The notes under the pieces: generated by a model
Seen by the model: only the letters and a program-made list of their open reading frames with translations
Told to the model about the DNA's origin: nothing
Databases searched by the model: none
Virus record (IMG/VR): IMGVR_UViG_3300034062_004471
Span: 1 to 42,130 of that record
Origin: a virus
Strand: one strand, 5' to 3'
Length of the DNA stretch: 42,130 nt
Part shown: positions 7,046-21,272 of the stretch, in pieces
Layout: each line of letters opens with the position of its first letter
Numbering within the stretch: the stretch's first letter is position 1
Position numbers and translations under genes: made by a program

Positions 7046-7138
7046 GTGTTTATTTTTTTTATAGTATGTATCATACATCTGGACAAAATATTCAGATTTT
7101 AGGCTATTTGGTTTTTATAATTTTTCAGATCCGTGGTG

Positions 7139-7144
7139 TATACT
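7139..7144 (+). promoter_or_regulatory. -10 box placing P450 on a leaderless message
   Basis: TATACT followed by 6 nt and then ATG at 7151. Supports ATG 7151 rather than the in-frame GTG at 7133 as the P450 start. Confidence 0.6.
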
Positions 7145-7150
7145 AAAGTT

Positions 7151-8317
7151 ATGTTGCCTCCAGACGCTCCTGAACTATTTATGCTTTTAAAGAAAGCAAC
7201 AAAAGGAAACCCATCTGTCAGCATAAATTCAGAAAGCATATTTTTTGCATTTACCAATAAGGCAGTGGAAGATGTTGCTCTAAACAAATACAACAGTTTT
7301 GAAAAAAGCGGTAGACTAAAAGCATTAGACTATGTCCTGGGTGAAGGTCTTATAACCAGTGAAGAACCTAAGCATATGCACAACAAGAAAGAAATATCTC
7401 CAACATTCCACAACGATCATATGGTCGAATATGAAAATAGAATATCTACAATCATAGACTCTTTACTTTCTAACTGGTCTGACGAAGTAGATGTTAGAAG
7501 GGAAATGGGGTTTTTCGTTTTCAAAAGTATCCTAGAAATATTTTTTTCAGAAAGCATGGACGAGTATTTCACGGAAGCAAGAGAAAACGTATCTACAGCA
7601 TCATATAAAATTGCTAACAGTGTGTACGATGACGAACTGCTTAAGTCAAGAGATGAGTTAAGAGAGTTTTCTAAAAAAATAGTAGACAAAAGATTAGAGT
7701 CTAAAGAAATAAAAAATGATTTTTTAGATATCATCATCAATTCGTACAATAATAAAAAAATAGATCTTGACGATCTGTACGACGAAGCAATAACTATGCT
7801 ATTGGTTGGATATGAAACAACTGCATTTGCATTGGAGTGGGCAGTCTACTATTTGTCGATAAATAAAAATTGGCAAGAAAAAATTTCTAGAGAAGAAAAT
7901 GTTGATGCTTTTATTAATGAGGTTTTGAGAATGTCTCCTCCTATTTGGAATGAATCCAGGGTAGCGATGGAAGATGTAGAAATAGACGGAGTAATCATAC
8001 CTACTGGCACACATGTAATGCTAAGTTCTTTGGCCGTACATAGAAACAAAGATGTTTTTGAAGATCCAGACACCTTTAAACCAGAAAGATGGTTTGGTAA
8101 TCTAGATTTGTCAAAAGGAGAATATTTTCCATTTTTGTTTGGCAAAAGACAGTGCATCGGCAAAGAGTTTGCTTTAATGGAAATGAGAATAATGTTAACC
8201 AAAATTGCTAAAAAATTCACGGTAGATTTAGCAAGCAATCACACAGGACATACTGCAACAATATCCTATAGGCCTAAAGATCCTATTATCATACGTGTCA
8301 AAGCAATTGGTGTATAA
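7151..8317 (+). CDS. Cytochrome P450 monooxygenase
   Basis: A soluble heme-thiolate monooxygenase of 388 residues from this start, close to the usual length of bacterial P450s. All signature elements are present: I-helix GYETT (about 220-224), ExxR as EVLR (257-260), FKPERW, and the heme loop FLFGKRQCIG with the proximal Cys near 335. The N-terminal GEGLITSEEPKHMHNKKEIS region resembles the CYP102/CYP110-like group. No reductase or ferredoxin gene is visible, so electrons must come from the host. No N-terminal membrane anchor is visible. The substrate is unknown. The next gene is a Cys-rich peptide whose -10 box overlaps this gene's stop, so the pair may work together. P450 genes are rare in phages. 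Confidence 0.92.
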   Translation: MLPPDAPELFMLLKKATKGNPSVSINSESIFFAFTNKAVEDVALNKYNSFEKSGRLKALDYVLGEGLITSEEPKHMHNKKEISPTFHNDHMVEYENRISTIIDSLLSNWSDEVDVRREMGFFVFKSILEIFFSESMDEYFTEARENVSTASYKIANSVYDDELLKSRDELREFSKKIVDKRLESKEIKNDFLDIIINSYNNKKIDLDDLYDEAITMLLVGYETTAFALEWAVYYLSINKNWQEKISREENVDAFINEVLRMSPPIWNESRVAMEDVEIDGVIIPTGTHVMLSSLAVHRNKDVFEDPDTFKPERWFGNLDLSKGEYFPFLFGKRQCIGKEFALMEMRIMLTKIAKKFTVDLASNHTGHTATISYRPKDPIIIRVKAIGV

Positions 8318-8696: not shown

Positions 8697-8723
8697 GCCC
8701 ATTCCTTTTCTCTTGTATGTTAT

Positions 8724-8732
8724 ATTATAGCA
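8724..8732 (-). promoter_or_regulatory. Extended -10 promoter (TGC-TATAAT) for 8511-8696
   Basis: On the minus strand TGC precedes TATAAT, leaving a leader of about 20 nt with an AAAAGGA site. Confidence 0.6.
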
Positions 8733-8736
8733 CTAA

Positions 8737-9705
8737 CTAAAGCCAAGGGCCAACTATATGATCGTGTTGGTCACTTAGTGAAATTTCAGATTCTTTTTGA
8801 AATTTTTCGTATAGTTCATATGAACCTATTCCGTAGACACCCAGAGATGTATCCCCAGATAATATTTTTGCAGCCCTAAAGTAGGAATCTTTATTCATAT
8901 CTCCCCACTCGGAGTGATCTTGCCAATGAAGAACCCTTTTGTCGCTATCATAGTTTTCATTATAAGCATGCCACATATAGTGAAACGATGGATTAATTAG
9001 TTTAACTCCCCTGGTGTAAAACCTCAAGGCCAGAGTTGGCTCTTCGCCAATAAAATACAGTTCTTTATCGTACGGTATTTCTTTTATAATCTTTGACTCA
9101 CAAAACAAAGAGTTAGCACATAAAAAATATGCTTCATATCCATATTTAAAATAATCGCACTCGTACCAAAATGGCTGAGGCATGGTGTCTTCATCTTTCC
9201 ACCCCATAGCCCCTCTCATTGGCACTTTTTCAAAATCGTAGAACTCTTCTATTCCAGTTTCGTGATCTCTTCTAAATCCTTCTGGGTGCATAGTAAACGC
9301 AATCTCAGATTGCCAGTAATCTTTACAGGCGACATAGTTTTCTGTTACTACTTTATCCCAATCATCAATAAATCTAGAATGGGAGTCTATCTGTAAAAAA
9401 TAATCAGTATGTATATCCCTAGAGACAATCTCCCTAGCCCAGCATGCGCCTCTACTTTCAGAAAAATGGTATTTCACATATCTGATTTGAGACTCTGGTA
9501 TAAAAGACAAATCAGGATGTTCAGATTCATCGGCTTGAGAAACAATTGAAAAAAATAGTCTATCTCTATACTTTGCATTATAGTATGCGCTAGTTACTGT
9601 ATTTACAAGATCAGGATCTCTATAACTTGCAATTGAAATAAAAATTGTTTTTGATTTTGATGGAACAAAGCGACTAGCAATTAAAGGTACGTTAATCAAT
9701 TCCAA
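8737..9705 (-). CDS. GT60-like polypeptide N-acetylglucosaminyltransferase
   Basis: A 322-residue protein matching the pattern of GlcNAc transferases of CAZy family GT60, whose founding member adds GlcNAc to hydroxyproline of Dictyostelium Skp1. Seen in the sequence: FISIASYRDPDLV (about 22-34), RGACWAR (85-91), a metal-binding-type QIDSHSRF (DxH near 107-109) and IGEEPTLALRFYTRG towards the C-terminus. It starts with TTG at 9703-9705, overlapping the upstream gene by 10 nt. A cytosolic enzyme acting on a phage or host protein is expected. Given the collagen-like and proline-rich fibres and a 2OG oxygenase in this window, those fibres are candidate acceptors. Donor and acceptor are inferred. 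Confidence 0.75.
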   Translation of the reverse strand: MELINVPLIASRFVPSKSKTIFISIASYRDPDLVNTVTSAYYNAKYRDRLFFSIVSQADESEHPDLSFIPESQIRYVKYHFSESRGACWAREIVSRDIHTDYFLQIDSHSRFIDDWDKVVTENYVACKDYWQSEIAFTMHPEGFRRDHETGIEEFYDFEKVPMRGAMGWKDEDTMPQPFWYECDYFKYGYEAYFLCANSLFCESKIIKEIPYDKELYFIGEEPTLALRFYTRGVKLINPSFHYMWHAYNENYDSDKRVLHWQDHSEWGDMNKDSYFRAAKILSGDTSLGVYGIGSYELYEKFQKESEISLSDQHDHIVGPWL

Positions 9706-10466
9706 TCAACCACTTCGTCATAGGTAACGCTATACTCTCCTGTGAATATTTCTGCATAAGATATGATGTCTTTATTGTACCTTGTAAGGGTGTTTTTACC
9801 GACTTTGTCACATAGATACTTTGTACCATTAGTTAGTACCTCAAAAGCCATCTCTTGCCCTTGTAAGGCGTTATTGAGGGTATCTATGTACCTTGCCTTA
9901 CCATAACGCTTTGATGTAAAAGATTGATCAACATAATCAAACCTTGCTTGTGCATCATTTCTTTTTGCAATGTCCGAATTGTCTATTATGTACTTTGTTG
10001 CAGGATGTTCCATCCGTGTTGACCAGTTTCGCATGTTATCGCTGTATCTCTCCATGTTCTTGAGAGTTGAATCAGCGAAAGCCATGCGTATAAGGTCTTG
10101 TTCGGATAGGTCAGCCTCTATTGCGAACGAAATCAAAAAAGCGGTTGCGAAAGGAAACTTGTCGCTATATGTCGAAACGCCGAAGTGAACATTCGGATTA
10201 AATGACTCGACTGACATATTGTCTTCTAATAGTCGCATATGATTTCCGAGAGATACATACTCTTGTCGATTCATATCGCAGTCGACGAACAAGCATTCTT
10301 CTGGATTGATCCCGTCGGCGAGACATAAAATATTTTTGTCGTACGAACCCACTATTTTCGAACCGTTAAAACGCTCTAGTAATTTTGCGGACATAAAACC
10401 ATCCATGTCGGGGGATATAATTAAATTCCTAGAATACTCCAGTGTATCCAGTATGTCTGTTTTCAT
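9696..10466 (-). CDS. Possible DHH-type phosphoesterase
   Basis: A 256-residue protein. An N-terminal ISPDMDGFMSAKLL motif resembles the first metal-binding motif of DHH/RecJ-like phosphoesterases (SxDxDG), followed by LFVDCDMNR, a second Asp motif, and a GNHMRLLED segment in place of DHH. Without a clear DHH triad the call stays weak; a nuclease or nucleotidase role would fit. It is the promoter-proximal gene of a two-gene unit with the glycosyltransferase. The -10 TATATT lies 6 nt before ATG 10466, so it is probably leaderless. Confidence 0.45.
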   Translation of the reverse strand: MKTDILDTLEYSRNLIISPDMDGFMSAKLLERFNGSKIVGSYDKNILCLADGINPEECLFVDCDMNRQEYVSLGNHMRLLEDNMSVESFNPNVHFGVSTYSDKFPFATAFLISFAIEADLSEQDLIRMAFADSTLKNMERYSDNMRNWSTRMEHPATKYIIDNSDIAKRNDAQARFDYVDQSFTSKRYGKARYIDTLNNALQGQEMAFEVLTNGTKYLCDKVGKNTLTRYNKDIISYAEIFTGEYSVTYDEVVDWN

Positions 10467-10472
10467 TTTTTA

Positions 10473-10489
10473 AATATACCCCTTATAAT
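10473..10489. promoter_or_regulatory. Divergent -10 boxes for leaderless genes
   Basis: On the minus strand TATATT (10478-10473) lies 6 nt before ATG 10466. On the plus strand TATAAT (10484-10489) lies 9 nt before ATG 10499. The two boxes are only 5 bp apart. Confidence 0.5.
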
Positions 10490-10498
10490 AATTTTATT

Positions 10499-10750
10499 AT
10501 GACAGTACAAGACTGGGCTTCTCTTATAGTAGCCATACTTACAATTGTATCATCAATCGCCTTCGCAATCAAGTGGATGGTAAAACATTATCTCAGCGAA
10601 CTTAAGCCCAATTCTGGATCATCGATAAAAGATCAAGTTTCAAGATTAGAGAATCGTCTAAACGAAGCAGACAAAACACGTAAAGATATGGATCGCAAAT
10701 TAGATCACATGTATGATATTCTTATTGAGTATATTGCAAAATCTAAGTAA
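10499..10750 (+). CDS. Single-span membrane protein with coiled-coil tail (possible holin or related)
   Basis: An 83-residue protein starting MTVQDWASLIVAILTIVSSI. One membrane span at about residues 8-27 is followed by a charged heptad-like helix (SRLENRLNEADKTRKDMDRK). Its size and layout are like some phage holins or spanin-like accessories, but no lysis gene is adjacent; the lysozyme-like gene is at 20.7 kb. The ATG at 10499 is chosen over an upstream ATG because the TATAAT box lies between them. Confidence 0.55.
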   Translation: MTVQDWASLIVAILTIVSSIAFAIKWMVKHYLSELKPNSGSSIKDQVSRLENRLNEADKTRKDMDRKLDHMYDILIEYIAKSK

Positions 10751-10781
10751 CTATATATACTATATATAAGATATCTTTTAA

Positions 10782-10804
10782 AACTATAAAGATAGTTCTT
10801 TTTT
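10782..10804 (+). terminator. AT-rich terminator
   Basis: AACTAT-AAAG-ATAGTT stem followed by C and six T residues, 31 nt after the stop at 10750. Also usable on the other strand. Confidence 0.55.
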
Positions 10805-10861
10805 CTTATATATTTAAAGTATACACTATCCCTAATCTGGCTAAAATAGACTTATGGTAAC

Positions 10862-10900
10862 AAATCGGACATTGTCTATTATAACAATTGTATAACAATT
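10862..10900. repeat. Shared regulatory blocks AAATCGGACATTGT and phased TATAACAATT
   Basis: The 14-mer (10862-10875) is identical to 6104-6117, and its inverse AATGTCCGATTT is at 6248-6259. ATTATAACAATT (10878-10889) recurs at 6159-6170. TATAACAATT is repeated with an 11-bp period (10880, 10891). The gap 10805-11007 contains no gene. Confidence 0.5.
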
Positions 10901-10939
10901 ATAAAACCTTTACTTTAATGTCCATTTTGTCTATTATGG

Positions 10940-11006
10940 TATAATTTATTACTGGCTAATACCTTGGTTTGTCCTATACCCACCAATCAAGGTATTAGTC
11001 TTTTTT
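10940..11006 (+). ncRNA. Putative short terminated RNA (promoter directly followed by terminator)
   Basis: TGG-TATAAT (10937-10945) should start transcription near 10952, two bases before a 13-bp stem GGCTAATACCTTG / CAAGGTATTAGTC (10954-10966, 10988-11000; one G-U) with a 21-nt loop and a T6 tail. The product would be a roughly 55-nt hairpin RNA. Alternatively it is an attenuator for the fibre genes. Confidence 0.5.
10954..11006 (+). terminator. Strong intrinsic terminator ahead of the fibre region
   Basis: Long GC-containing stem followed by TTTTTT. It insulates the fibre genes from the left part; the next promoter, TGG-TATAAT (11008-11016), starts 2 nt later. Confidence 0.75.
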
Positions 11007-11007
11007 A

Positions 11008-11016
11008 TGGTATAAT
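11008..11016 (+). promoter_or_regulatory. Leaderless promoter TGG-TATAAT
   Basis: The box lies 7 nt before ATG 11024. Model case of the TG[G/A]TATAAT-N6/7-ATG arrangement in this region. Confidence 0.7.
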
Positions 11017-11023
11017 CATTATT

Positions 11024-11404
11024 ATGGCTACACATGGACCAGAAGTATTTGGAGCAGACCCTGCTCGTATAAAATGGCAAATAGTTAGGGGAGACACCTC
11101 TCCGCTTCGTGTGGAATTTTTGCAAGATGATGAAGCAACATATTTTGATACATCTGATTGGACCTTTGAGGCTACTTCTTATGATCCTCAGTCTGATGCT
11201 CTTGATTCCCTGGAAGTTTCACGTGGAACAGGATATGTAGATATAATGGCTCCATCTTCAGTTACAGCACTATGGGGAACTGGCTACAAAGCAATAGTAA
11301 CAGAATTAACTTTTGATCTACAAGTTACAATTGACTCAGATACAGTTTGGACTCCTTTGATTGGAACTATTTCAGTCATTGGTGATGTTACAGGTAGTTT
11401 GTAA
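11024..11404 (+). CDS. Fibre/baseplate-associated protein with RGDTS motif
   Basis: A 126-residue protein starting MATHGPEVFGADPARIKWQI. The motif WxIVRGDTSxxxVxFxxDD is shared with 21964-22380 (WTVVRGDTS) and more loosely with 12248-13030 (YKGDTFEFRI). Such N-terminal modules occur in baseplate upper and fibre-attachment proteins, so a structural role is likely. ATG 11024 is chosen because the TATAAT box lies only 7 nt upstream; the in-frame ATG at 10964 is inside the terminator hairpin. Confidence 0.65.
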   Translation: MATHGPEVFGADPARIKWQIVRGDTSPLRVEFLQDDEATYFDTSDWTFEATSYDPQSDALDSLEVSRGTGYVDIMAPSSVTALWGTGYKAIVTELTFDLQVTIDSDTVWTPLIGTISVIGDVTGSL

Positions 11405-11490
11405 TGGCAGTAGTTAAAGTTTCAACTCCAAGGCCAGAGTTGCCTCCAGTAATTAGAATTAAAAATAAAACATTTAAAGTAAATAAATAA
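11404..11490 (+). CDS. 28-residue microprotein
   Basis: Starts MAVVKVSTPRPELPPVIRIK in a TAATG overlap with the RGDTS gene. Basic and Pro-containing. The overlap is the main evidence for translation. Function unknown. Confidence 0.45.
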   Translation: MAVVKVSTPRPELPPVIRIKNKTFKVNK

Positions 11491-11493
11491 TCA

Positions 11494-11502
11494 TGAGATA
11501 AT
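11494..11502 (+). promoter_or_regulatory. Leaderless promoter TGA-GATAAT
   Basis: Lies 6 nt before ATG 11509 of the collagen-like gene. Confidence 0.6.
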
Positions 11503-11508
11503 GTCTTT

Positions 11509-12240
11509 ATGGCTGCTTCTAAATCAATGGACTTTCCTAGTGCAAAAAAATCTAGTTATGCTGCACAAGTAGAACAAAGCCAAACATCTAACTATCAAGA
11601 AAATACATTGTCTTTTCTTCCAGTTCCTGGACCACAAGGACCGCAAGGACCAGCAGGTAAAGATGGAAAAGATGGCTTGCCTGGCCCAGCAGGTCCAGAA
11701 GGACAAAGGGGACCAAAAGGAGAAAAAGGACAATCTGGACAAAACGGACTAAGTTCTTTATCGTCTTCAGGACAGCAGGCTGGTTGGGCATCTTACACAA
11801 ACAGCATTAATAAACCAATAAAACTTGGAATATCCCAGGGTGACGATGGATGGGTTACATTGTTGCTAGATACAAAAGATAAAACTCAAAATGAAGTCTA
11901 CATTCCAAAAGGATGTACTAGTCTTTGGAACAGTCATCAGAGAGCCCTAAACTTCCACGGCATCAAAGAAGGATCCCAAGTGTTCGTAACATATAACTTT
12001 GAACTAACCACATATACTTCTAATACTGAGGTTTGGCTAAGGACATATTTTGCAAGCAAGGGGCAAGAGTTTGTTAACTTTGTTGGTTCCCTTAAATATC
12101 AAAACACATACAACCTTTCAGTTACTCAAAATATATTTATTGAGAATCAGTCTATGTGGGGCAATGGGGCAGTTCCTCAAATACGAACAGACTTTGATGC
12201 ATCGGTAATACTCAATTCTGTATATGTCAGCGTGGTATAA
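11509..12240 (+). CDS. Collagen-like fibre protein
   Basis: A 243-residue protein with an N-terminal linker, a collagen-type block of 13 Gly-X-Y triplets plus Gly (residues 41-80, GPQGPQGPAGKDGKDG...), and a C-terminal beta-rich domain (about 95-243, with single Cys in PKGCTSLW). The collagen block would make a trimeric stalk and the C-terminus a receptor-binding or capping head. Several X-Y positions carry proline and could be substrates for a prolyl hydroxylase such as the 2OG enzyme at 16953; that is inference. Leaderless start; its stop codon lies within the next -10 box. Confidence 0.85.
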   Translation: MAASKSMDFPSAKKSSYAAQVEQSQTSNYQENTLSFLPVPGPQGPQGPAGKDGKDGLPGPAGPEGQRGPKGEKGQSGQNGLSSLSSSGQQAGWASYTNSINKPIKLGISQGDDGWVTLLLDTKDKTQNEVYIPKGCTSLWNSHQRALNFHGIKEGSQVFVTYNFELTTYTSNTEVWLRTYFASKGQEFVNFVGSLKYQNTYNLSVTQNIFIENQSMWGNGAVPQIRTDFDASVILNSVYVSVV

Positions 12241-12241
12241 T
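12233..12241 (+). promoter_or_regulatory. Leaderless promoter TGG-TATAAT overlapping a stop codon
   Basis: Contains the TAA stop of the collagen-like gene and lies 6 nt before ATG 12248. Confidence 0.65.
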
Positions 12242-12247
12242 AAAACC

Positions 12248-13030
12248 ATGGCATTTCCAGCGACCTATGACTTTAATTACTATAAGGGTGATACCTTTGA
12301 GTTTCGTATCTACCCAAAAAAGAACGATGGAACAGCACACCTTTTAAGTGCTTTTAATGTGCCAACAAACTTTGCCAACAACCCAGACTATGTTTTAGAC
12401 ACATCAGCGCCATACGATAGCGCACAGTTTTCAATTGCCTCAGCCCGTGGTGCAACTCAAATTATAAATGGAGTTTCTACACCAGTAGTTCCAATTAGAT
12501 GCTTTGCTAGAATATCCGACGACGGAACATTTGTTCAGTGTGCAATTAGACCATCCGACTCAGTTGCCCTAAACGCTGGAACAGAATATGTTTATGATGT
12601 TGAAGTAAGAGCAGCAGAAGGAAATTACGACAATCCATTTTATGAAAAAGTATACACTCTAATGACAGGTAAAATAACAGTAACAGATCAGATTACTGGA
12701 GCAAGAGAAAATACTAGTGCCACTTTGTCAAACTATAATATTAGAGGAGTTACTAAGCCAGTTAAGGGAGCAACCCCAGTAACATCTGTTTTTGAAACAG
12801 CAGAACATTCAGGAACTGTTGCTTGGTTTGAGTCAGATGCAACTACACCACTGGTTGGAAACTTTGTTGCTTCCACTTCTTATGTTGCAAAGATTACGCT
12901 AACTGTAAAACCTCCATACTATATTACTGGAACCCCAGCAAACAGATTTACAGTAGAGCATGCAACAGTTGTTACAAACGCAATTAACTCAGGAATAGTT
13001 ACTGCAGTATTCCCTGCAACAGGGGCTTAG
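12248..13030 (+). CDS. Probable tail/baseplate structural protein
   Basis: A 260-residue protein starting MAFPATYDFNYYKGDTFEFR. The N-terminal YYKGDTFEFRIYPKKNDGT resembles the N-terminal domain of baseplate upper proteins; the rest is Ala/Thr-rich beta structure with Val-Thr repeats. ATG 12248 is preferred over an upstream in-frame ATG because the -10 box lies between them. It is followed closely by the next fibre gene. Confidence 0.65.
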   Translation: MAFPATYDFNYYKGDTFEFRIYPKKNDGTAHLLSAFNVPTNFANNPDYVLDTSAPYDSAQFSIASARGATQIINGVSTPVVPIRCFARISDDGTFVQCAIRPSDSVALNAGTEYVYDVEVRAAEGNYDNPFYEKVYTLMTGKITVTDQITGARENTSATLSNYNIRGVTKPVKGATPVTSVFETAEHSGTVAWFESDATTPLVGNFVASTSYVAKITLTVKPPYYITGTPANRFTVEHATVVTNAINSGIVTAVFPATGA

Positions 13031-13032
13031 TC

Positions 13033-13629
13033 GTGGCAGATATACTTTTATCTAATGATGACCTAACAGTTTTTGGTGGACCAGAAACAATTAGCCTTGA
13101 TTTAGATTTTGGACCAACTGGTGATCGTGGAAGTATCATTATTGGAGTCCAGGGAGATCCAAGGCAAAAGTTTGTTAATGATTCAATTTCTCAAGACATC
13201 CAGGCATTAGATATTGCAATAGACTATAGCCCATCTTCTCCAACATACAAAACAGTATTTCAAAGAATCTCAGGTCCTACTGAAACACAATGGATTCCTC
13301 TAGTTAGTTTAAAGTCAAACTTTTATTCAGAAACCAAAGGGCCCTTAACACCAGTAGGTGGCAAAATAACTATTGCACCCATAAACCTTGCAGACATTTA
13401 TGATCTATCAGAAGGAACAGTCACTTCTTCAAGATTTAGCGTACAGTACTCTATATCTTCACCAGAAAGTGCTGGACCTCTAGCAACAAACCTAATTATA
13501 AAAGAACTAAACACTACTCAAGGATTTATCGCTTTGCCACTTGAAATAGAAGGAATAGAATATCTAGATGGAGAATGGGTACCTATGGCTGGCCCAAAGT
13601 ATGTTCATCTTTTTATTACGGTGGTATAA
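13033..13629 (+). CDS. Tail structural protein
   Basis: A 198-residue, beta-rich protein starting MADILLSNDDLTVFGGPETI with GTG at 13033. The segment LDLDFGPTGDRGSIIIGVQGDP includes a short GDRG collagen-like stretch also found in other phage fibre proteins. Its stop overlaps the next TATAAT box. Function is inferred from location. Confidence 0.6.
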   Translation: MADILLSNDDLTVFGGPETISLDLDFGPTGDRGSIIIGVQGDPRQKFVNDSISQDIQALDIAIDYSPSSPTYKTVFQRISGPTETQWIPLVSLKSNFYSETKGPLTPVGGKITIAPINLADIYDLSEGTVTSSRFSVQYSISSPESAGPLATNLIIKELNTTQGFIALPLEIEGIEYLDGEWVPMAGPKYVHLFITVV

Positions 13630-13630
13630 T
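13622..13630 (+). promoter_or_regulatory. TGG-TATAAT box overlapping a stop codon
   Basis: The TAA stop of 13033-13629 lies inside TATAAT. The downstream ATG 13649 is 18 nt away, with a weak AAAGGG ribosome site in between. Confidence 0.55.
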
Positions 13631-13648
13631 GAAAAAGGGTGATCTATA

Positions 13649-16297
13649 ATGGCAGCAGAGAATATTGATGGTACTATCAATGGTACTGGCCTGTTCCCTG
13701 CAAAAATACCTGGTCTTTCAGATGCAGCCGATATTCAGGCAGCGCTAAGACTTTATCACTACGGATCATATACCTATGACGGTGCTAACACAAATGAAGC
13801 AACCTTGCTTGCAAACCCATCTGTTGCAGCACATCTACAAACTCTTAAAAATGCTGATGCAGCAGAAGTAACAAACAGAAATGCTGCAATTGCTGTAGAA
13901 ACAACAAATAGAAATACTGCAATTACAACACACAATGCAGCAACAACAAATGTTCACGGAATAGCAAATACAGCAAACCTTGCAACACAGCAATTTGTAG
14001 CAACTGCAGTTACAACTGCAATAAGCGGTGCTACTGGAGGATATCCTGCTCTTGCAGGAGATGCTATTGATTGGAACTCTGTTGACGCAAGATTTGATGT
14101 TGTTCCACAACTTGCAAATGTTGGAACAGTTATAACAAAAACAGAAAACTTTATCTTATCACCCGATGATGTTGGAAAGACTGCTATTTTGTATTCTTCT
14201 AACCCAATAGTTGTGACTCTTCCAGCAAACGCTTTAGTAGAAATTCCAGTGGGATATTCAATTGATATAATTCAAACAGGCACTGGTTCAGTAACTGTAT
14301 CTGAAGGCAGTGACGCTGTTTCAATTAATAGCAAGGCTGGAATAAAATCTCTAGATGGACAATATTCAAAAGGTACTCTGGTTAAAATAGACACCAATAC
14401 ATGGTTTTTTTTTGGAAACTTACTTAACGTAGTAGTTCCAACACCTGTTCCAACACCTGTAGCACCAGTTCCAGTTCCAACACCTGCAGTAGTTCCTGTT
14501 GCACCAACACCAATAGTTTCTCCAGTTGCCCCTGTTGTTCAGCCAACTGCTCCAACACCAATAGTTTCTCCAGTTGTTCAACCTACAACTCCAGTTGCTC
14601 AAACACCTACTCTTGCAACCCCATCACTTTCTGTAAGTATGGGACCAGACGGATTTAATGGTGCAGTTTATGCAAATGTTACAGTAACAAATCATAGTAA
14701 TGATAATACATACACATCAAATCTTGGAACACAAAACCCTGAGTTCCCAGAAGAATTTAATATTTCTGGATTAACTAGTGGTCAATCTTACACAGTTTAT
14801 ATAACTGCATCTCGTTCTGGATATACAAGTGCTCAAGGATCTATAACCTTTACCGCAAATGCAGTGGCTCCAACACCTGTAGCAACTCCAACAAGTCCAG
14901 TTGCTCCTGTTCCTGCAGTTGCTCCTGTTACTCCAACTGCTCAACCTAACTACTATGTTTTCACATATTATGACGGAAAATGTAACTACATAGTGTATGA
15001 TTTCCTTGATAATGAAATAGGAACATACTCAACAAATCTTTGTACAAATTCTGGAACAGATGCTTCTGGGGCAACTCTTCCAAGTTGTAGTAATTCAGGT
15101 TGTGTTTCTACTACACCAGTTGCTCCTGTACCAGCACCAACACCAGCACCAACTCCTACGGTAATTGTTGCACCAGGAACAGTTTATTTATCATATTGTG
15201 ATCCTCAAGGTGGGCCACAAGTTGAATCATATGCAATTAATGCAGACAACATTCTTTCTACAAATATTAATACTGCATGTGCAACATACTATGATGTCTT
15301 AAGTTACGCAGGAGCAACAAATATTCAGTGCTCTACTGCTTCATCGCCTGGAGCCCCATCATGTGGAACCGCCCCAGCACCGACACCAGTTGCTGCTCCA
15401 GTTGCTCCTGTAGCACCAGTTCCAGTACCAGTTGCGCCTACACCAGTTCCAGCAGTACAGACTTCTACAATTTATCACGCAGTATGCTTTAGTGATGGCG
15501 GTACAAGCAATGACTCAAGCACAGTTCCAAATATGCTTTATTCCGATTGTACAACTTACCGAGCATTTGTACTAAGTATTGATCCAGGAGCATCTATAAA
15601 TTGTTCTGCTTCAGGGCCAGTTTCTTTACCAGGATGTGTTGCACCTACACCAGCACCAACACCTGTAGTACCTGTAGCGCCAGTTCCAGCACCAGTTGCT
15701 CCTGTAGCGCCAGTTCCAGCACCAACAGCACTAACATGTCCAAACAATGACACCTATGGAGTTACAAGTGGAGGAGTCTACAGTGGTTCTTGCCCTGATG
15801 GTTCATGTCCAGGATGTAGCAATTACCAAGAGAAGTGGTACAAGTGCTCTGATGGAAGTTCAGGAACTAAGTTCTATGTAGGTCTTGGATGTAGCACACC
15901 TGTAGCACCTGCACCTGTTGCACCTGCACCTGTTGCACCTAGCCCTGCTCCTACTGCAGCACTAGACTGTACAGCGTGTACTGGATATAGCGGACTTGCA
16001 GGAACAGAAGTACAAGACTGTTCTGATGGATGCGGAACTAGAACATTGTGTAGAACGCCTCTAGGATGTGCCAACTACTACTTAAATGAATGTCCAGGTT
16101 GTGCTGCTCCTACACCAGTTGCTCCTACACCTGCTGCTGCGACACCTACAGCGTCTTCACCAACAGCATGCGTTGCAAACTGCGTATTTGATGGTTATAC
16201 CTGTAATGGATGGGCAGCAACATATACTTATATTAACTATGGATGTGGAGGAGCAAGTGCTTGCCCTCCTTATACCGATAATTTTGGTTGTGCATAA
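13649..16297 (+). CDS. Large proline-rich, Cys-module fibre protein
   Basis: An 882-residue protein. Residues 1-160 hold fibre repeats (TNVHGIANTANLAT, YPALAGDAIDWNS). About 160-260 is a beta domain shared with the C-terminus of 27222-29024. From about 262 on, Pro/Ala/Val/Thr linkers (PVPTPVAPVPVPTP type) alternate with globular modules: an Fn3-like domain (about 323-404) and six Cys-containing modules (about 433-488, 507-573, 604-664, 694-750, 770-822, 837-882). The fifth (LDCTAC...CRTPLGC) is homologous to modules in 29055-30833. The extended PAPT/PVAP linkers resemble hydroxyproline-rich glycoproteins and are candidate acceptors for modification. No signal peptide. Confidence 0.8.
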   Translation: MAAENIDGTINGTGLFPAKIPGLSDAADIQAALRLYHYGSYTYDGANTNEATLLANPSVAAHLQTLKNADAAEVTNRNAAIAVETTNRNTAITTHNAATTNVHGIANTANLATQQFVATAVTTAISGATGGYPALAGDAIDWNSVDARFDVVPQLANVGTVITKTENFILSPDDVGKTAILYSSNPIVVTLPANALVEIPVGYSIDIIQTGTGSVTVSEGSDAVSINSKAGIKSLDGQYSKGTLVKIDTNTWFFFGNLLNVVVPTPVPTPVAPVPVPTPAVVPVAPTPIVSPVAPVVQPTAPTPIVSPVVQPTTPVAQTPTLATPSLSVSMGPDGFNGAVYANVTVTNHSNDNTYTSNLGTQNPEFPEEFNISGLTSGQSYTVYITASRSGYTSAQGSITFTANAVAPTPVATPTSPVAPVPAVAPVTPTAQPNYYVFTYYDGKCNYIVYDFLDNEIGTYSTNLCTNSGTDASGATLPSCSNSGCVSTTPVAPVPAPTPAPTPTVIVAPGTVYLSYCDPQGGPQVESYAINADNILSTNINTACATYYDVLSYAGATNIQCSTASSPGAPSCGTAPAPTPVAAPVAPVAPVPVPVAPTPVPAVQTSTIYHAVCFSDGGTSNDSSTVPNMLYSDCTTYRAFVLSIDPGASINCSASGPVSLPGCVAPTPAPTPVVPVAPVPAPVAPVAPVPAPTALTCPNNDTYGVTSGGVYSGSCPDGSCPGCSNYQEKWYKCSDGSSGTKFYVGLGCSTPVAPAPVAPAPVAPSPAPTAALDCTACTGYSGLAGTEVQDCSDGCGTRTLCRTPLGCANYYLNECPGCAAPTPVAPTPAAATPTASSPTACVANCVFDGYTCNGWAATYTYINYGCGGASACPPYTDNFGCA

Positions 16298-16307
16298 AAA
16301 TGCAATA

Positions 16308-16316
16308 TGATATACT
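16308..16316 (+). promoter_or_regulatory. Extended -10 promoter TGA-TATACT
   Basis: Precedes a short leader with AAAAGGAG before ATG 16335. First promoter of the modification cassette. Confidence 0.6.
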
Positions 16317-16334
16317 ATATTAAAAGGAGAAAAA

Positions 16335-16712
16335 ATGCAATTTAAATTAAATGCTGAAGACGAAGTCATTGATTTTATTTATATAGAGACAGACACTGAG
16401 ACAGGTTTGCCAGTAAGAGATACAGATGTTTTGGTATTTAATTCACTATCTTCTAGTCCATCTGTTGTAGAAATAACTGATTTAGAATATAATCCAGAGC
16501 AGGGCTCTATTTGGAACGGTAAAGATTTTATAGATCCAGAAAATAGAGAACCAAGACCTCTTGCTAAAAAAGATGATGGTTTTAGAAAGTTTGCATTTAT
16601 TGTAGACAACGAATATAAGTTTTTCTATGGTGTTGCAGATACACCAGAAAACGGAATGAAGATTGCAATTCTTTCTAGCAATCCACAAGTTACAATTGGA
16701 GAGGAAATATAA
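16335..16712 (+). CDS. Hypothetical protein heading the modification cassette
   Basis: A 125-residue acidic protein starting MQFKLNAEDEVIDFIYIETD, probably all-beta, with strong AAAAGGAG. It overlaps the next gene by TAATG. Similar proteins occur near fibre genes in other phages, but I cannot name a family. Confidence 0.6.
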   Translation: MQFKLNAEDEVIDFIYIETDTETGLPVRDTDVLVFNSLSSSPSVVEITDLEYNPEQGSIWNGKDFIDPENREPRPLAKKDDGFRKFAFIVDNEYKFFYGVADTPENGMKIAILSSNPQVTIGEEI

Positions 16713-16951
16713 TGGAAGAGAATCTATCGCCACTGCAAAAATACAAGCAGATGCTTGGAGATACAAGACCTTGGGATGTTGTAAATCCAAATACTGAGTG
16801 GGCAGATGAAGAAGTAGCAAAAGAAAGATTTTCCATCTGTAAAGGATGTCCAGAATTAATTAAACTAACTAGTCAATGTAAAAAGTGTGGCTGCCTTATG
16901 AAAGTAAAAACAAAATTAGAAAAAGCGGTTTGCCCACTAGGAAAGTGGTAA
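16712..16951 (+). CDS. Cys-rich protein (DUF6171-like)
   Basis: A 79-residue protein. C-x2-C (CKGC), then C-x2-C-x-C (CKKCGC) and a final CPLGKW form a compact zinc-ribbon-like site. The C-terminal pattern QCKKCGCLMKxKxKLxxAxCPLGKW recurs in phages next to 2OG oxygenases, and here too such a gene follows directly. It may be a metal-binding partner of that enzyme; the DUF number is from memory. Confidence 0.65.
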   Translation: MEENLSPLQKYKQMLGDTRPWDVVNPNTEWADEEVAKERFSICKGCPELIKLTSQCKKCGCLMKVKTKLEKAVCPLGKW

Positions 16952-16952
16952 A

Positions 16953-17543
16953 ATGAAACCAGCATACCTGTTAAAGACAGTTTTTCCACCAGAAGAGCAT
17001 TTGGCTTTACAAAATCTTGCAATGAATCTTTGGTCAACAGACAAAAGCACGTATGATAGAGGTTTTGGAAGACATCAATGGACAATTTGGGATAATACTC
17101 ACGGTCCTGCAATTGAGCCATTAAGAAGATTTCACGAAATGCTTTTACCATTAGCAAGAGAAGAGTTTGAATCAGAAACTCTTGTGCCATCTTGGTGCCT
17201 ATTAAGTATTTATGAGGGAAAAGAAGCAAAATTATGGAAGCATGTAGATGATAACGCTTGCACATACCATATAAACTATACAATTTTTCATAAAACACCT
17301 TGGGACTTTTATGTAGAAGGTGAAAAATTTCAGGCAGAAGAAAATGATGCAGTTATTTCTTATGGTAATGATCAGTTACATTGGAGGGAAGAATTTCCAG
17401 ATCCAGAACACAATCTAGTTGCTAATGCATTCTTTTTTTATACAGAGCCAGATCATTGGTTCTTTAAGCATGGTCCACAATATCTATATACTGATATTCG
17501 TAAACCAGTTGAAGGCAAAGAAACAATAAAAGAAACTATGTAA
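16953..17543 (+). CDS. 2-oxoglutarate/Fe(II)-dependent oxygenase
   Basis: A 196-residue, single-domain enzyme. The facial triad is visible as H-x-D in LWKHVDDNACTYHINY (His and Asp near 96-98) and a distal His in DQLHWREEFPD (near 149), with jelly-roll strands between. The FYVEGEKFQAEENDAVISYG strand pair is typical of the P4H-like group. It would hydroxylate a protein residue or small molecule. Adjacent to a fucosyltransferase-like gene and close to collagen-like and proline-rich fibres, a prolyl-hydroxylase role on virion proteins is an attractive inference. AGGAAAG precedes the ATG. Confidence 0.75.
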   Translation: MKPAYLLKTVFPPEEHLALQNLAMNLWSTDKSTYDRGFGRHQWTIWDNTHGPAIEPLRRFHEMLLPLAREEFESETLVPSWCLLSIYEGKEAKLWKHVDDNACTYHINYTIFHKTPWDFYVEGEKFQAEENDAVISYGNDQLHWREEFPDPEHNLVANAFFFYTEPDHWFFKHGPQYLYTDIRKPVEGKETIKETM

Positions 17544-18575
17544 ATGAATAAATTATTCTTTCAGTTATATAATCCTACAGGTTTAATAAATCAGGTAATG
17601 AGCCTTGAGTTGGCAGCAGGGTTATCTCATGAACTAAATGTTCCAGTCATTATGCACTATGGAAGATATACAGCAGACCCAAAACTTTATTTTACTGATA
17701 CAATTCCAATTTTTAGTCCAAGCAGGTTTTATAATGAACAAAGAAAAGGTTTTACAAACGATAACCAATTTCCTCACTTGCTAGACCTTATGGATTTTGA
17801 TCAAAACATAATTATAATTGATGAAAAAATAGATCACTTTGAACAAGAAGAACTAGTTATTGATGATATTATGAATAATTTTTATTATAGTAATCAACCA
17901 GAAATAACTGGAGATGAGTTTCTTTTTGCAGAAGGAAGAAAAAGACTTCCACTAGATAAAACACTTCATTTAAAATTGACTCTCGGCTGGTACTCAAGAT
18001 TTTTTTATAAAAGAAGTGATAGCCTAAACAAAGCAATATCTTCAGTCAGATTTAAAAAAGAGTATGTAGATTTAGCAAACAAAATATATCACTCTATCGG
18101 AGAATTTCAAGGAATGCACTTAAGATTATCGGATCACATAAAGATGTTTGAAACAAAACAAGAAATGTTTGAGTCATGGCTAGATAAATTTGCACAGAAT
18201 AATCTTCCTGTAGTTTTATCAACTTGTGAGCCAGGACATAAAATGGTACAAGATAATAAGCATAGGTTTATACTGTTAGATGAATATATTGTGCATAATT
18301 TTAGAGATGAATTTATGGCTTTGCCATTTCAGGATGAAGTAGTTTTTGGACTTATATGTAACTTGGTAATGCATAATGCTACAAACTTTGTTGGAACATC
18401 TGGAAGCACATATACTGCCTATATTCATAGAAATAGAAATCAAAAAGGAATTGAGACTTGGGACTTTTTTGACAACCCACCAAAGACAACATCAACTCGT
18501 TACTCTTGGAATGGATCTTCTTTAGAGAATGGCAGAAAAATGTGGTGGAGAGAATGGCCAGAATCAAAATGTTAA
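17544..18575 (+). CDS. O-fucosyltransferase-like glycosyltransferase
   Basis: A 343-residue protein with the hallmarks of the GDP-fucose-dependent protein O-fucosyltransferase fold: N-terminal FFQLYNPTGLINQVMSLELA, GMHLRLSDH (near 190-198, the HxR-type nucleotide-binding segment) and NFVGTSGSTYTAYIHRNR (near 280-297). It starts right after the oxygenase. The donor may be GDP-L-fucose or GDP-L-galactose; the latter would be supplied by the epimerase at 19635. Acceptor unknown, probably a fibre protein or host surface glycan. Confidence 0.7.
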   Translation: MNKLFFQLYNPTGLINQVMSLELAAGLSHELNVPVIMHYGRYTADPKLYFTDTIPIFSPSRFYNEQRKGFTNDNQFPHLLDLMDFDQNIIIIDEKIDHFEQEELVIDDIMNNFYYSNQPEITGDEFLFAEGRKRLPLDKTLHLKLTLGWYSRFFYKRSDSLNKAISSVRFKKEYVDLANKIYHSIGEFQGMHLRLSDHIKMFETKQEMFESWLDKFAQNNLPVVLSTCEPGHKMVQDNKHRFILLDEYIVHNFRDEFMALPFQDEVVFGLICNLVMHNATNFVGTSGSTYTAYIHRNRNQKGIETWDFFDNPPKTTSTRYSWNGSSLENGRKMWWREWPESKC

Positions 18576-18646
18576 AAAGAATTTTTTATAAGTTTAAAAT
18601 GTGGCGTAAGTATAAAAAAATAAAAAAGGGTAAGTTTATTTACTAA
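18569..18646 (+). CDS. Very basic microprotein
   Basis: A 25-residue peptide starting MLKRIFYKFKMWRKYKKIKK. Its stop forms a TAATG overlap with the SGNH gene, which suggests translational coupling. An ATG at 18554 in the same frame would add five residues. The peptide could be an antimicrobial-like or RNA-binding peptide or simply a coupling leader. Confidence 0.35.
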   Translation: MLKRIFYKFKMWRKYKKIKKGKFIY

Positions 18647-19584
18647 TGCTTTTTGATATGTTTAATCCTAGAGTTATTCCTCATATGGGTATTGATAAAA
18701 CACAACCAAAAAAGGATTATTCTCATACTACTGAAATATTGGCAGGGCATTCAGAAGTACCAAGACCAGAATACAATTATAAATGGAATAGCGATAACCT
18801 AAGATCCATAGAGTTTGCGACAAAGCCACCAATAGTAGCCCTAGGTTGCTCTATAACGCTTGGCCAAGGACTTCCAGAACATCTTAGGTGGACCGACCTT
18901 CTATCTAATCGTATTGGGGTCCCTATAGGAAATATATCTTATTCTGGAGCATCTGCAAACAAGTTGGTTTCTAGTTTTTTAGGAATGATTCATCAATATC
19001 AATATAAGCCAGAGATTGTTATTGCTCATTTTGCAAACTTTGAAAGATTTTATTTTGTTAGCCCAGACGGGGAAAGAATGCAGGAGTGGTTTATTAATCA
19101 TAGTGCAAAAAAAACAAAAGCATCAGCACCTTGGAACTATGAAGAGATTTTGCCATATGAGTGGGTTTATTATCAAAATCTAGATCATATTAAAATGCTA
19201 GAAGCATTCTGTGAGGCAAGCGGAATTAAACTGTACTGGTCTTCTTGGTCACACGGAATGACAGATGAACAAGAACAATTCTTAAAAGACAACTTTAGGC
19301 ATTATGTTTCAGACACAACAAAGAAAGAGTTTCCAGCAGACTTTGAACTTGGTTTTGTTGCAAACAGTGTGCCTGAACTTACCAAGCATTTTGAGATGAT
19401 AAATTGGCAAGGGTGCCATCATGGATGGAAAGACATGTACCCAGAAATATTTGACTATGGCTATGACTACCACAAAATTGCATATGACTATGGAAGACTA
19501 AAGGGGCCTGGAGCGCACTGGCCACACCCTGGGCTACATAAGCAGTTGCATATTTCTGAGTTTTGGGAAAAACTAATATCCTAA
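18646..19584 (+). CDS. SGNH/GDSL-type hydrolase
   Basis: A 312-residue protein. The nucleophile block is ALGCSITLGQG (Ser near residue 67), followed by an Asn/Gly block NISYSGASANK, and a C-terminal HPGLHKQLH in place of the DxxH block, as seen in divergent SGNH esterases. It would remove or transfer acyl groups such as acetyl from glycans. In this cassette it may trim a fibre glycan or act on host polysaccharide. The missing Asp leaves some doubt about catalysis. Confidence 0.65.
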   Translation: MLFDMFNPRVIPHMGIDKTQPKKDYSHTTEILAGHSEVPRPEYNYKWNSDNLRSIEFATKPPIVALGCSITLGQGLPEHLRWTDLLSNRIGVPIGNISYSGASANKLVSSFLGMIHQYQYKPEIVIAHFANFERFYFVSPDGERMQEWFINHSAKKTKASAPWNYEEILPYEWVYYQNLDHIKMLEAFCEASGIKLYWSSWSHGMTDEQEQFLKDNFRHYVSDTTKKEFPADFELGFVANSVPELTKHFEMINWQGCHHGWKDMYPEIFDYGYDYHKIAYDYGRLKGPGAHWPHPGLHKQLHISEFWEKLIS

Positions 19585-19603
19585 ATATTTTAAAATAGGG
19601 ATA

Positions 19604-19609
19604 TATACT
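19604..19609 (+). promoter_or_regulatory. -10 box (TATACT) before the epimerase
   Basis: TATACT 25 nt before ATG 19635. No clear ribosome site, only a GTGAGA tract. Confidence 0.35.
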
Positions 19610-19634
19610 TTAAGTGAGAGAATTGTGAGATAGT

Positions 19635-20666
19635 ATGAAAACAGCATTAGTCCTTGGAGCAGGTGGCTTTATCGGTAGCCACATGGTTAATAGACTTAAG
19701 TCAGAAGGATACTGGGTTAGAGGTGTTGATCTAAAGCATCCTGATTTTTCTAACACACAGGCAGACGAGTTCATTGAAAGAGATCTGTCCGTTTATGAAA
19801 ATGTTGAAAAGGCAATTCAGTTTAAAGGATATCAAGGAAACTTTTATAGCGAAATACCATATAAGTTAATTACTAGTTTTGATGAGATTTATCAATTTGC
19901 TGCAGATATGGGTGGCGCTGGATATATATTTACTGGAGAACACGATTCCCAGATTATGGAAAACTCTGCACTTATAAACCTTAACTTGCTTAGGGCACAA
20001 TCAAGACTAAACGCAAAATATGATATTAATAAAACCAAAATATTTTATTCAAGTTCTGCCTGTATGTATCCTGACTATAAGCAGTTGGATGTTAATAATC
20101 CTGGATTAAAAGAGTCTGACGCATACCCTGCCGATCCTGACAGCGAGTATGGCTGGGAAAAATTGTTTAGTGAAAGAATGTTCTTAGCCTTTAATAAAAA
20201 CAACAGAATTCCCGTAGCGATTGCCAGATATCACAACATCTATGGACCAGAAGGAACTTGGGATGGTGGAAAAGAAAAGGCTCCTGCAGCAATGTGTCGA
20301 AAAGTTATACAGTCAGATGGCTTTATAGAAATTTGGGGGGATGGAGAACAAACCCGTTCATTCCTATATATAGATGAATGCATAGAAGCAACAAGAAGAC
20401 TTATGAAATCAGACTTTACTGGTCCTGTTAATATTGGATCTGAAGAAATGGTTACTATCAACCAGTTGGTAGATATTGCTTGCAGTATTGAGGGCAAGGT
20501 TTTGAGCAAGATGCATATCCCTGGACCTTTGGGAGTTAGAGGAAGAAATTCTAATAATGACTTGGTAAGAGAAAAACTAGGCTGGGATTACTCAATGTCT
20601 CTTAAAGACGGAATTGAAAAAACCTACAACTGGATACTTCAGGAAACAAAAAAGAACCCCTCCTAA
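19635..20666 (+). CDS. GDP-mannose 3,5-epimerase (GDP-L-galactose synthesis)
   Basis: A 343-residue extended short-chain dehydrogenase strongly resembling plant GDP-mannose 3,5-epimerase. N-terminal GAGGFIGSH (8-16) binds NAD. YGWEK (about 172-176) carries the Tyr/Lys pair. SSACMYPDYKQLD holds the Cys (near 143) that acts as acid/base in the plant enzyme, and GGKEKAPAAMCRK and PGPLGVRGRNSNN match its Lys and Arg sites. The length fits the family. It converts GDP-D-mannose to GDP-L-galactose (and GDP-L-gulose) in the cytosol. Next to a fucosyltransferase-like gene, it probably supplies the donor sugar. A terminator hairpin overlaps the stop codon. Confidence 0.88.
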   Translation: MKTALVLGAGGFIGSHMVNRLKSEGYWVRGVDLKHPDFSNTQADEFIERDLSVYENVEKAIQFKGYQGNFYSEIPYKLITSFDEIYQFAADMGGAGYIFTGEHDSQIMENSALINLNLLRAQSRLNAKYDINKTKIFYSSSACMYPDYKQLDVNNPGLKESDAYPADPDSEYGWEKLFSERMFLAFNKNNRIPVAIARYHNIYGPEGTWDGGKEKAPAAMCRKVIQSDGFIEIWGDGEQTRSFLYIDECIEATRRLMKSDFTGPVNIGSEEMVTINQLVDIACSIEGKVLSKMHIPGPLGVRGRNSNNDLVREKLGWDYSMSLKDGIEKTYNWILQETKKNPS

Positions 20667-20673
20667 GAGGGGT
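20650..20673 (-). terminator. Terminator between convergent genes
   Basis: ACCCCTC-CTAA-GAGGGGT, a 7-bp GC-rich stem with a 4-nt loop (20656-20673). On the minus strand it is followed by TTCTTTTTT, so it terminates the lysozyme-like gene; it overlaps the end of the epimerase gene. Confidence 0.75.
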
Positions 20674-20687
20674 CCTAATTTGAGATA

Positions 20688-21251: not shown

Positions 21252-21272
21252 AGTTTCCTCCTTAGAAAACAA

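Follow-up and report, generated by a model that had tools for sequence, protein, structure and literature searches.

Can a phage hydroxylate the prolines of its own tail fibre and then attach sugars to them? The question is raised by IMG/VR virus record IMGVR_UViG_3300034062_004471, which we analysed over its entire length of 42,130 nt (hereafter the window). On its + strand, a fibre gene with X-Pro linkers is followed by a 2-oxoglutarate (2OG)-Fe(II) oxygenase, a glycosyltransferase and a GDP-mannose 3,5-epimerase. Across related loci, the presence of a cassette oxygenase tracks the repeat type of the fibre stalk: one accompanies nearly all proline-rich stalks, and none was found in the cassettes beside threonine-rich ones. 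The explanation that we favour, and hold to be somewhat probable, is a stalk-modification cassette in which fibre prolines would be hydroxylated, then glycosylated, by the phage's own enzymes. An earlier note on this DNA had proposed that the phage hydroxylates and glycosylates its own fibres; the X-Pro stalk part of that proposal gained strong comparative support, and a collagen-like protein that it also took as a substrate fell away. The genes and linkers concerned are these.

13649-16297, + strand: tail fibre or stalk protein, 882 residues, proposed substrate (tail fibre phrog, E 3.7e-5)
14414-14596, + strand: X-Pro linker 1 of 7, residues 256-316, low-complexity core
14852-14947, + strand: X-Pro linker 2 of 7, residues 402-433, low-complexity core
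15104-15184, + strand: X-Pro linker 3 of 7, residues 486-512, low-complexity core
15347-15472, + strand: X-Pro linker 4 of 7, residues 567-608, low-complexity core
15617-15748, + strand: X-Pro linker 5 of 7, residues 657-700, low-complexity core
15887-15976, + strand: X-Pro linker 6 of 7, residues 747-776, low-complexity core
16091-16180, + strand: X-Pro linker 7 of 7, residues 815-844, low-complexity core
16335-16712, + strand: small protein between fibre and enzymes (open reading frame (ORF); C-terminal end resembling, by eye, the small "VDGE" proteins that relatives carry in the same place)
16712-16951, + strand: Zn-ribbon-like protein, 79 residues, Cys-rich (CxxC...CxxCGC...C), the anchor gene of the cassette (cassette comparison)
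16953-17543, + strand: 2OG-Fe(II) oxygenase (OX1) with H97-x-D99...H143-x-R145, proposed prolyl hydroxylase (alignment, AlphaFold2 model, fold matches)
17544-18575, + strand: glycosyltransferase of the POFUT/NodZ fold (FUT) (AlphaFold2 model, fold matches, profile)
18646-19584, + strand: SGNH/GDSL-like protein (Pfam E 0.19, below cut-off; recurs in the cassette)
19635-20666, + strand: GDP-mannose 3,5-epimerase (GME) (Arabidopsis 2c59, E 1.1e-91)
20688-21278, - strand: lysozyme-like protein, the downstream border of the backbone-1 cassette and outside it (profile match, gene order)
8737-9705, - strand: GT60/PF11397 GlcNAc-transferase-like protein (Pfam PF11397, E 1.2e-31)

The unit in the window runs from the fibre gene through the epimerase gene (13649-20666), in the order listed. 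Its four genes at 16335-18575 form a tight run in which neighbours overlap or are spaced by at most 2 nt. All ORFs named in the earlier note are present; this run, the epimerase 19635 and the SGNH-like 18646 had been overlooked.

The fibre protein 13649 consists of an adaptor-like N-terminal part and Cys-containing modules joined by the seven linkers. A, T, V or S precedes 78 of its 103 prolines (mean 44.9 and maximum 62 in 5000 shuffles), and PP occurs once (mean 11.9, minimum 2). The densest 40 residues hold 15 prolines, a density equalled in 0.24% of shuffles. This is the arabinogalactan-protein type of pattern, non-contiguous X-Pro with A, T, S or V. That the stalks belong to the tail is our inference from gene position and from weak matches to tail-fibre profiles.

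Repeat type and oxygenase across related loci

We collected related loci in scans with 16953 (best 80 of 153 relatives), 17544 (71 loci), a tail gene of a second backbone (best 80 of 99 relatives), the Zn-ribbon gene (best 80 loci) and another small neighbouring gene (best 80 of 138). Because the scans gave the best 80 loci each, the sample is not random. When the whole oxygenase alignment was the query (535 relatives), the best 80 loci were those of the 16953 scan, so distant oxygenase relatives were not reached that way. The first set comprised 291 loci and 258 anchors, of which 36 had no stalk call and 222 had repeat stalks; 210 were evaluable and 124 distinct in stalk end and gene content. 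The second set comprised 80 loci, 68 of them new; after 27 repeats were dropped, 41 were left, of which 2 were stalkless, 35 evaluable and 28 distinct.

The first set contains the loci that gave rise to the idea, and the second is separate from it. The direction of the prediction was recorded before the scans with the Zn-ribbon gene and the neighbouring gene. Stalks were classed as Thr-type when the fraction of serine, threonine and tyrosine (S+T+Y) was at least 0.47 and Pro below 0.2, and as Pro-type when Pro was at least 0.2, limits that were fixed after both sets had been viewed. "No oxygenase" means that none was found inside the cassette.

In the first set, a cassette oxygenase is present in 111 of 116 Pro-type and 0 of 8 Thr-type distinct loci (Fisher p 1.2e-9); in this test the stalk of L258 was mis-picked (the true stalk is Tyr-rich by eye), and L105, L106, L197 and L200 were dropped though they bear oxygenases. 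In the second set, for which the queries favoured oxygenase-less loci, the counts are 12 of 13 and 0 of 12 (p 2.7e-6), with 3 of the 28 loci unclassed: L345, read in the wrong frame (true repeat PTTPTP), and L349 and L350, which have no real repeat, were all classed as "other". The GT60-like transferase is retained in 19 of the 20 Thr-type loci of both sets together (11 of 12 in the second). Where GT60 or FUT is present, the median S+T+Y of the repeat core is 0.53 in loci without an oxygenase (n=10) and 0.26 in those with one (n=70; Mann-Whitney p 1.2e-5); none of the 10 and 16 of the 70 have values below 0.20.

We examined this association on a tree of 69 rows and 670 columns, made from backbone-1 genes that lie outside the cassette; L258, L345, L349 and L350 were left out beforehand. 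On this tree there are 10 changes in oxygenase presence and 9 in stalk type. Among 9 supported independent pairs, a mean of 7.5 are concordant, 1.5 show no difference and 0 are opposite (p 0.008-0.016). On the backbone-2 tree (33 rows), 3 of 3 pairs are concordant, too few for significance, and a tree of the 76-residue anchor was too weak, with 1 supported pair. Because the switching recurs on a tree of outside genes, the pattern is more than shared descent, and it is what making hydroxyproline and then glycosylating it predicts.

In the stretch from fibre to lysozyme, the Zn-ribbon gene accompanies exchangeable enzyme sets: 16953-17544-18646-19635; 16953 and 19635 with a ~42% homologue of 17544; 16953 plus a GT60-like gene; or GT60-like, 16953, 17544-like and 19635 genes jointly. 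An oxygenase gene lies before the anchor gene in L099-L101. Among 100 complete distinct loci, FUT occurs with an oxygenase in 49 of 49 cases and with GME in 47 of 49, and GME occurs without FUT in 9. Of 25 complete distinct loci with GT60, 17 have an oxygenase in the same cassette as the GT60-like gene; the other 8 are seven loci with Thr-rich stalks and L258.

A second phage group (L102-L111, L113, L115) has structural genes mostly unlike those of the window and the same enzymes, encoded a short way downstream of a protein that consists almost entirely of Pro repeats; examples are PAPIPAPVPAPI and VAPSPVAPSP in L111. This second backbone pairs the enzymes with stalks almost solely of V, A and P, often together with a P4H-like (prolyl 4-hydroxylase-like) oxygenase and a NodU-type carbamoyltransferase. 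The two backbones are partly connected: in some backbone-1 loci (L202-L212), a portion of the tail gene and the beginning of the stalk are common to both. In backbone-2 loci read with downstream room, the stalk is in the same place and has a common start, SPLxRxPSGIG (by eye), and the repeat is swapped. Oxygenase loci carry Pro repeats there, and L149, L152, L164 and L187, without oxygenase, carry (TTTTAAP)n or a similar Thr repeat with a GT60-like transferase, an epimerase-like gene and a radical-SAM-like protein (Pfam on the copies of L149). The radical-SAM/SPASM protein stands next to the GT60-like gene in L149 (Pfam) and, by eye, in L152, L187, L164 and L228.

Enzymes of the cassette and a proposed pathway

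The earlier note had called 16953 a 2OG-Fe(II) oxygenase, and the AlphaFold2 model (mean predicted local distance difference test, pLDDT, 92.7) and the H97-x-D99...H143 motif bear this out. H97, D99, H143 and R145 are kept in 41 of 41 aligned rows, and the modelled protein has the metal triad and double-stranded beta-helix of this fold. The best Foldseek matches of the model in the Protein Data Bank (PDB) are AlkB (E 2e-7), PHD2 (5e-7) and Pseudomonas P4H (5.5e-7). VIA-align Z scores are 17.1 for an uncharacterised 2OG oxygenase, 16.8 for SnoN, 16.1 for HalB, 15.4 for Trichoplax PHD, 15.1 for PHD2 and 14.8 for P. putida P4H. By sequence, 16953 had no Pfam match, nothing in NCBIfam at E 0.01 and no meaningful relative in the PDB, and 67 pattern matches in a search for cellular homes of the oxygenase yielded 0 confirmed cases. 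It matches phrog_2954, annotated "ferrochelatase" (E 1.8e-12), and its sole tblastn match in a phage collection is Synechococcus phage S-SM1 (two records, 27.6%), again annotated ferrochelatase. The label borne by phrog_2954 and by S-SM1 39369-39716 looks wrong, because the window member keeps the HxD...H triad and the 2OG-oxygenase fold.

Relatives carry a second, P4H-type oxygenase (OX2) beside such stalks. Its first His, Asp and second His are each present in 91 of 92 rows, and it has the P4H-type R/K, at +10 from the second His, in 92 of 92; one copy matches Pfam 2OG-FeII_Oxy_3 (E 1.8e-18), PHD2 (E 2e-4) and P4H (E 9e-4). OX1 is the sole cassette oxygenase beside 7 distinct stalks with S+T+Y below 15%, and FUT is present in all 7, some of whose cassettes are cut off downstream. 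One of these stalks (L166) is essentially (VP)n, with 57 V and 57 P per 131 core residues. That OX1 stands alone with FUT beside such stalks is the best hint that 16953 acts on proline and 17544 on the product.

The O-fucosyltransferase-like character claimed for 17544 holds at the level of the fold. The model (pLDDT 81.9) matches POFUT2 (Z 15.4, root-mean-square deviation 4.7, 263 aligned), POFUT1 (13.2; Foldseek E 1.9e-6) and NodZ (13.1), and the top match beyond fucosyltransferases has Z 9.0. Its score against Pfam O-FucT is 14.6 bits, short of the cut-off of 31.5. With a profile built from 28 homologues, POFUT2 is matched at no better than E 0.028, with the HLR and GxSxT segments aligned, and neither a PDB sequence search (nothing meaningful) nor tblastn in the phage collection (0 matches) added to this. 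We read 17544 as a predicted POFUT/NodZ/FUT8-fold protein that may work like members of the family. Neither 17544 nor 8737 nor 18646 has an NCBIfam match at E 0.01.

Fucose as the transferred sugar is doubtful given the partner GME. The protein 19635 is homologous to 2c59 over the whole chain, with SSAC, YGxEK and GGxEKAPAA, which we take to be the catalytic segments of GDP-mannose 3,5-epimerase, aligned; no NCBIfam model reached its cut-off. The family is common in bacteria (56-68% identity among 80 matches listed of at least 477). The products of GDP-mannose 3,5-epimerase are GDP-L-galactose and GDP-L-gulose. Because 47 of the 49 FUT genes accompany GME, L-galactose or L-gulose is more likely than fucose to be the sugar transferred.

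The GT60-like protein 8737 scores 111 bits against PF11397 (cut-off 21), and D107-S108-H109 is kept in 12 of 12 rows, in agreement with the family named in the earlier note. Its profile found nothing in the PDB at E 0.1, and tblastn in the phage collection gave three weak matches. The window copy was also counted as part of the modification unit, and this does not hold: it lies apart from the cassette on the - strand, close to a cytochrome P450 gene, and relatives elsewhere are inside the cassette. A minus-strand GT60 gene after P450 occurs, among the matches listed, only in loci 98-100% identical. The P450 gene itself (window 7133-8317, + strand; Pfam E 7.7e-57) is likewise restricted, among the matches listed, to loci 98-100% identical to the window.

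In the pathway that we propose, 16953 would hydroxylate the linker prolines, the epimerase 19635 would convert host GDP-mannose to GDP-L-galactose (or -gulose) as the donor, and the POFUT-like 17544 would attach that sugar to the new hydroxyproline. The SGNH protein 18646, tentatively a glycan esterase or acyltransferase, and the carbamoyltransferases of relatives may then decorate the sugar. On Thr-rich sister stalks, where there is no hydroxylase, threonine would be glycosylated directly by the GT60-like enzyme. The likely benefit would be a stiff, soluble, protease-resistant and variable stalk. A broader reading, which we rate at close to an even chance, is that metagenome-derived tailed phages carry a modular stalk system whose parts can be exchanged and which offers two acceptor chemistries. 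Thr-rich stalks, mucin-like in character, would receive their sugars directly; Pro-rich stalks would first be hydroxylated by a single phage 2OG oxygenase or by several, and would then be glycosylated on hydroxyproline, here with L-galactose or L-gulose. The repeat and its enzymes would be swapped as a set.

The NodU-like carbamoyltransferase of relatives is seen in L111 at 12885-14324 (Pfam E 3e-54), and a 72% identical copy lies at 47558-48979 of the 118,981-nt record G001, which carries relatives near-identical to the window; it suggests carbamoylated sugars.

Points against and competing explanations

Several observations weigh against hydroxylation followed by glycosylation of the stalk. 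Structural comparison with P4H supports the 2OG-oxygenase fold of 16953 and leaves peptide- and small-molecule-acting classes unseparated, with tied scores for peptide, amino-acid halogenase and small-molecule oxygenases. In P4H, a Lys or Arg ~9-11 residues past the second His binds 2OG; such a residue is absent at +8 to +13 in 36 of 41 OX1 rows, which instead have an invariant Arg at +2, and 16953 was not filed as a P4H because of this. These phages also encode oxygenases away from stalks (five OX2-type matches on G001), so that part of the phage oxygenases is left unexplained. The linkers of the window contain Thr and Ser as possible acceptors; in the near-identical L082 and L086, S+T+Y makes up 0.18-0.19 of the core. 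In 41 of the 124 distinct loci, an oxygenase occurs without FUT or GT60. Six Pro-type stalks, five in the first set and one in the second, lack a cassette oxygenase, and (TP)n stalks are found both with and without it.

The six exceptions are varied. L218 and L226 have (PFF)n stalks and an empty cassette, and L226 has an oxygenase ~8.4 kb beyond the anchor. L258 and L278 have Tyr-rich YYAPP stalks and a GT60-like gene, as does L296 of the second set (PYYAPP). L202 has a (TP)n stalk and a GT60-like domain fused, by eye, to the Zn-ribbon. A looser search of 17 + 21 oxygenase-less loci, which were not made distinct, gave a match in L226, weak matches in L262-L264 and, in L321, L324, L327 and L331, clear matches to oxygenases that lie on the other strand ~8-9 kb upstream.

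Three side observations concern these loci. The Tyr-rich YYAPPV/PYYAPP stalks of L258 (8908-9474), L278 and L296, with a GT60-like gene and no cassette oxygenase, may carry a Tyr-linked glycan. L239, L257, L243, L244 and others have (PFFPPFF)n stalks next to arrays of P4H-like 2OG oxygenase ORFs, five to nine in number, and neither FUT nor GT60 was found there; the oxygenase ORFs were verified as separate in L239 and L257. The further OX2-type oxygenases of G001 include those at 54091-55244 and 61621-63942, one of them within a 475-residue protein, and no Pro-rich ORF was seen in the 19.5 kb read around them.

The alternative that survives best, although we consider it unlikely, is that the oxygenase hydroxylates stalk prolines for mechanics only, giving a stiffer polyproline II helix, and that the transferases use linker Thr and Ser, with no hydroxyproline-linked glycan. 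The Thr and Ser of the window linkers, the GT60-like enzymes beside Thr-rich stalks without a cassette oxygenase and the 41 loci with an oxygenase and neither FUT nor GT60 all fit this account. It leaves aside that an oxygenase accompanies FUT in every complete distinct locus with FUT, and that FUT occurs beside cores with S+T+Y of 0.02-0.06 (L156, L174, L107, L166), where it would therefore have almost no Ser or Thr acceptor.

We regard as improbable a second alternative, in which the oxygenase acts on a nucleotide sugar, a glycan or another small molecule to make an unusual sugar and its link with Pro stalks is indirect. Its neighbours are sugar-modifying genes, and HalB/BesD-type amino-acid oxygenases, SnoN and AviO1 are among its fold matches. 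Cyanophage clusters with carbamoyltransferases and several 2OG oxygenases have also been read as decorating capsular polysaccharide or as small-molecule synthesis (PMC7824862), which is a further point against a stalk substrate; those clusters have the same enzyme classes but are not tied to a fibre repeat in the available part of that source. This account does not predict that repeat type and oxygenase change together on the tree of outside genes, that Thr-type cassettes have sugar enzymes yet no oxygenase, or that OX2 of relatives has a P4H-like sequence.

Modification of the host surface (superinfection exclusion) or of phage DNA by the transferases, roles often ascribed to phage glycosyltransferases, is very unlikely in our view; a DNA-protecting or host-wall-altering role has been proposed for glycosyltransferases of freshwater actinophages (PMC10202952), but here the genes lie in a tail-fibre gene run and switch with the stalk repeat.

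The collagen-like protein 11509 is genuine in its identity (Pfam Collagen, 32.7 bits against a cut-off of 27.2) and lies ~5 kb upstream of the oxygenase. Its collagen run has 14 triplets, with Pro at Y in one. In complete distinct backbone-1 loci with 9 kb of upstream sequence, a collagen-like gene is present in 20 of 20 with an oxygenase and 2 of 2 without one; in backbone-2 loci with 9 kb upstream, it is present in 0 of 8 with an oxygenase, and a long Gly-X-Y run occurs in 1 of 4 without one. We rejected classical collagen prolyl hydroxylation of 11509, the least likely explanation, because its presence is independent of the oxygenase, and neither its suggested role in a hydroxylation unit nor the expected co-occurrence of the enzyme genes with collagen-like fibres was upheld.

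Known systems and neighbouring genes

Hydroxyproline glycosylation in a phage was not found in titles and abstract openings, a coverage that leaves out subscription journals and preprints. The cassette would differ from known systems in its substrate, its partners and its switching with a Thr-type alternative.

Gnt1 of Dictyostelium is a GT60-family enzyme. In that organism, Skp1 is hydroxylated by PhyA before Gnt1 acts (PMC3515798). The parallel drawn in the earlier note stands for the enzyme classes, a 2OG oxygenase and a GT60-family enzyme, which share a cassette in most complete distinct GT60 loci. It is otherwise loose, because GT60 relatives also accompany Thr-rich stalks without an oxygenase. 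The Skp1 target is a single proline of a cytoplasmic protein and ours a repetitive phage stalk, and the enzymes of the window cassette include GME and one of the POFUT fold.

Plant hydroxyproline-rich glycoproteins (arabinogalactan proteins and extensins) have non-contiguous AP, TP, VP and SP that are hydroxylated and then O-glycosylated. The phage stalks share the X-Pro repeats, and the phage epimerase is closely related to plant GDP-mannose 3,5-epimerase. Here, however, the protein belongs to a phage and its hydroxyproline is predicted, and the plant hydroxyproline transferases belong to other families. In mucin-type O-glycosylation the likeness is to the (TTTTAAP) sister stalks with a GT60-like gene, whereas the window has a Pro-type stalk and an oxygenase.

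Among viruses, Mimivirus encodes its own collagen-modifying enzymes and glucosylates hydroxylysine (PMC9546862). It resembles the present case in having virus-encoded modifiers of a fibrous protein and differs in that lysine of a giant-virus collagen is modified rather than X-Pro stalks of a tailed phage. PBCV-1 has a prolyl 4-hydroxylase that is active on Pro-containing peptides, but, in the available part of the source, hydroxyproline was not found in PBCV-1 virions, which also counts against our explanation, and no glycosylation partner is described (PMC7019647). A 2OG oxygenase of freshwater pelagimyophages was interpreted as nucleic-acid modifying (PMC7029224), and the use of a viral prolyl 4-hydroxylase was termed "cryptic" in a Baltic virus survey (PMC9301287).

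Many unexplained 2OG oxygenases and glycosyltransferases of phages are usually filed as auxiliary metabolic or as capsule- or DNA-modifying genes. Co-switching with stalk chemistry offers a direct, testable function for such genes beside tail genes. If our explanation is true, hydroxyproline-linked protein glycosylation would exist in a virus of prokaryotes, and a plant- and protist-like chemistry would extend to phages. Consequences would follow for virion stability, adsorption and recognition, possibly also for the production of glycosylated hydroxyproline polymers.

The window is probably a fragment of a genome, and megablast with 8700-20700 matched no near-identical phage record. Elsewhere in the window, the + strand ORF at 29055-30833 also has X-Pro linkers and Cys-rich modules, together with a Gly-Ala-Phe repeat run; its C-terminal part resembles, by eye, a Hint/hedgehog-type self-processing domain, with no Pfam match for that part. 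A gene for a B12-dependent (class II) ribonucleotide reductase lies at 32615-34648 on the + strand.

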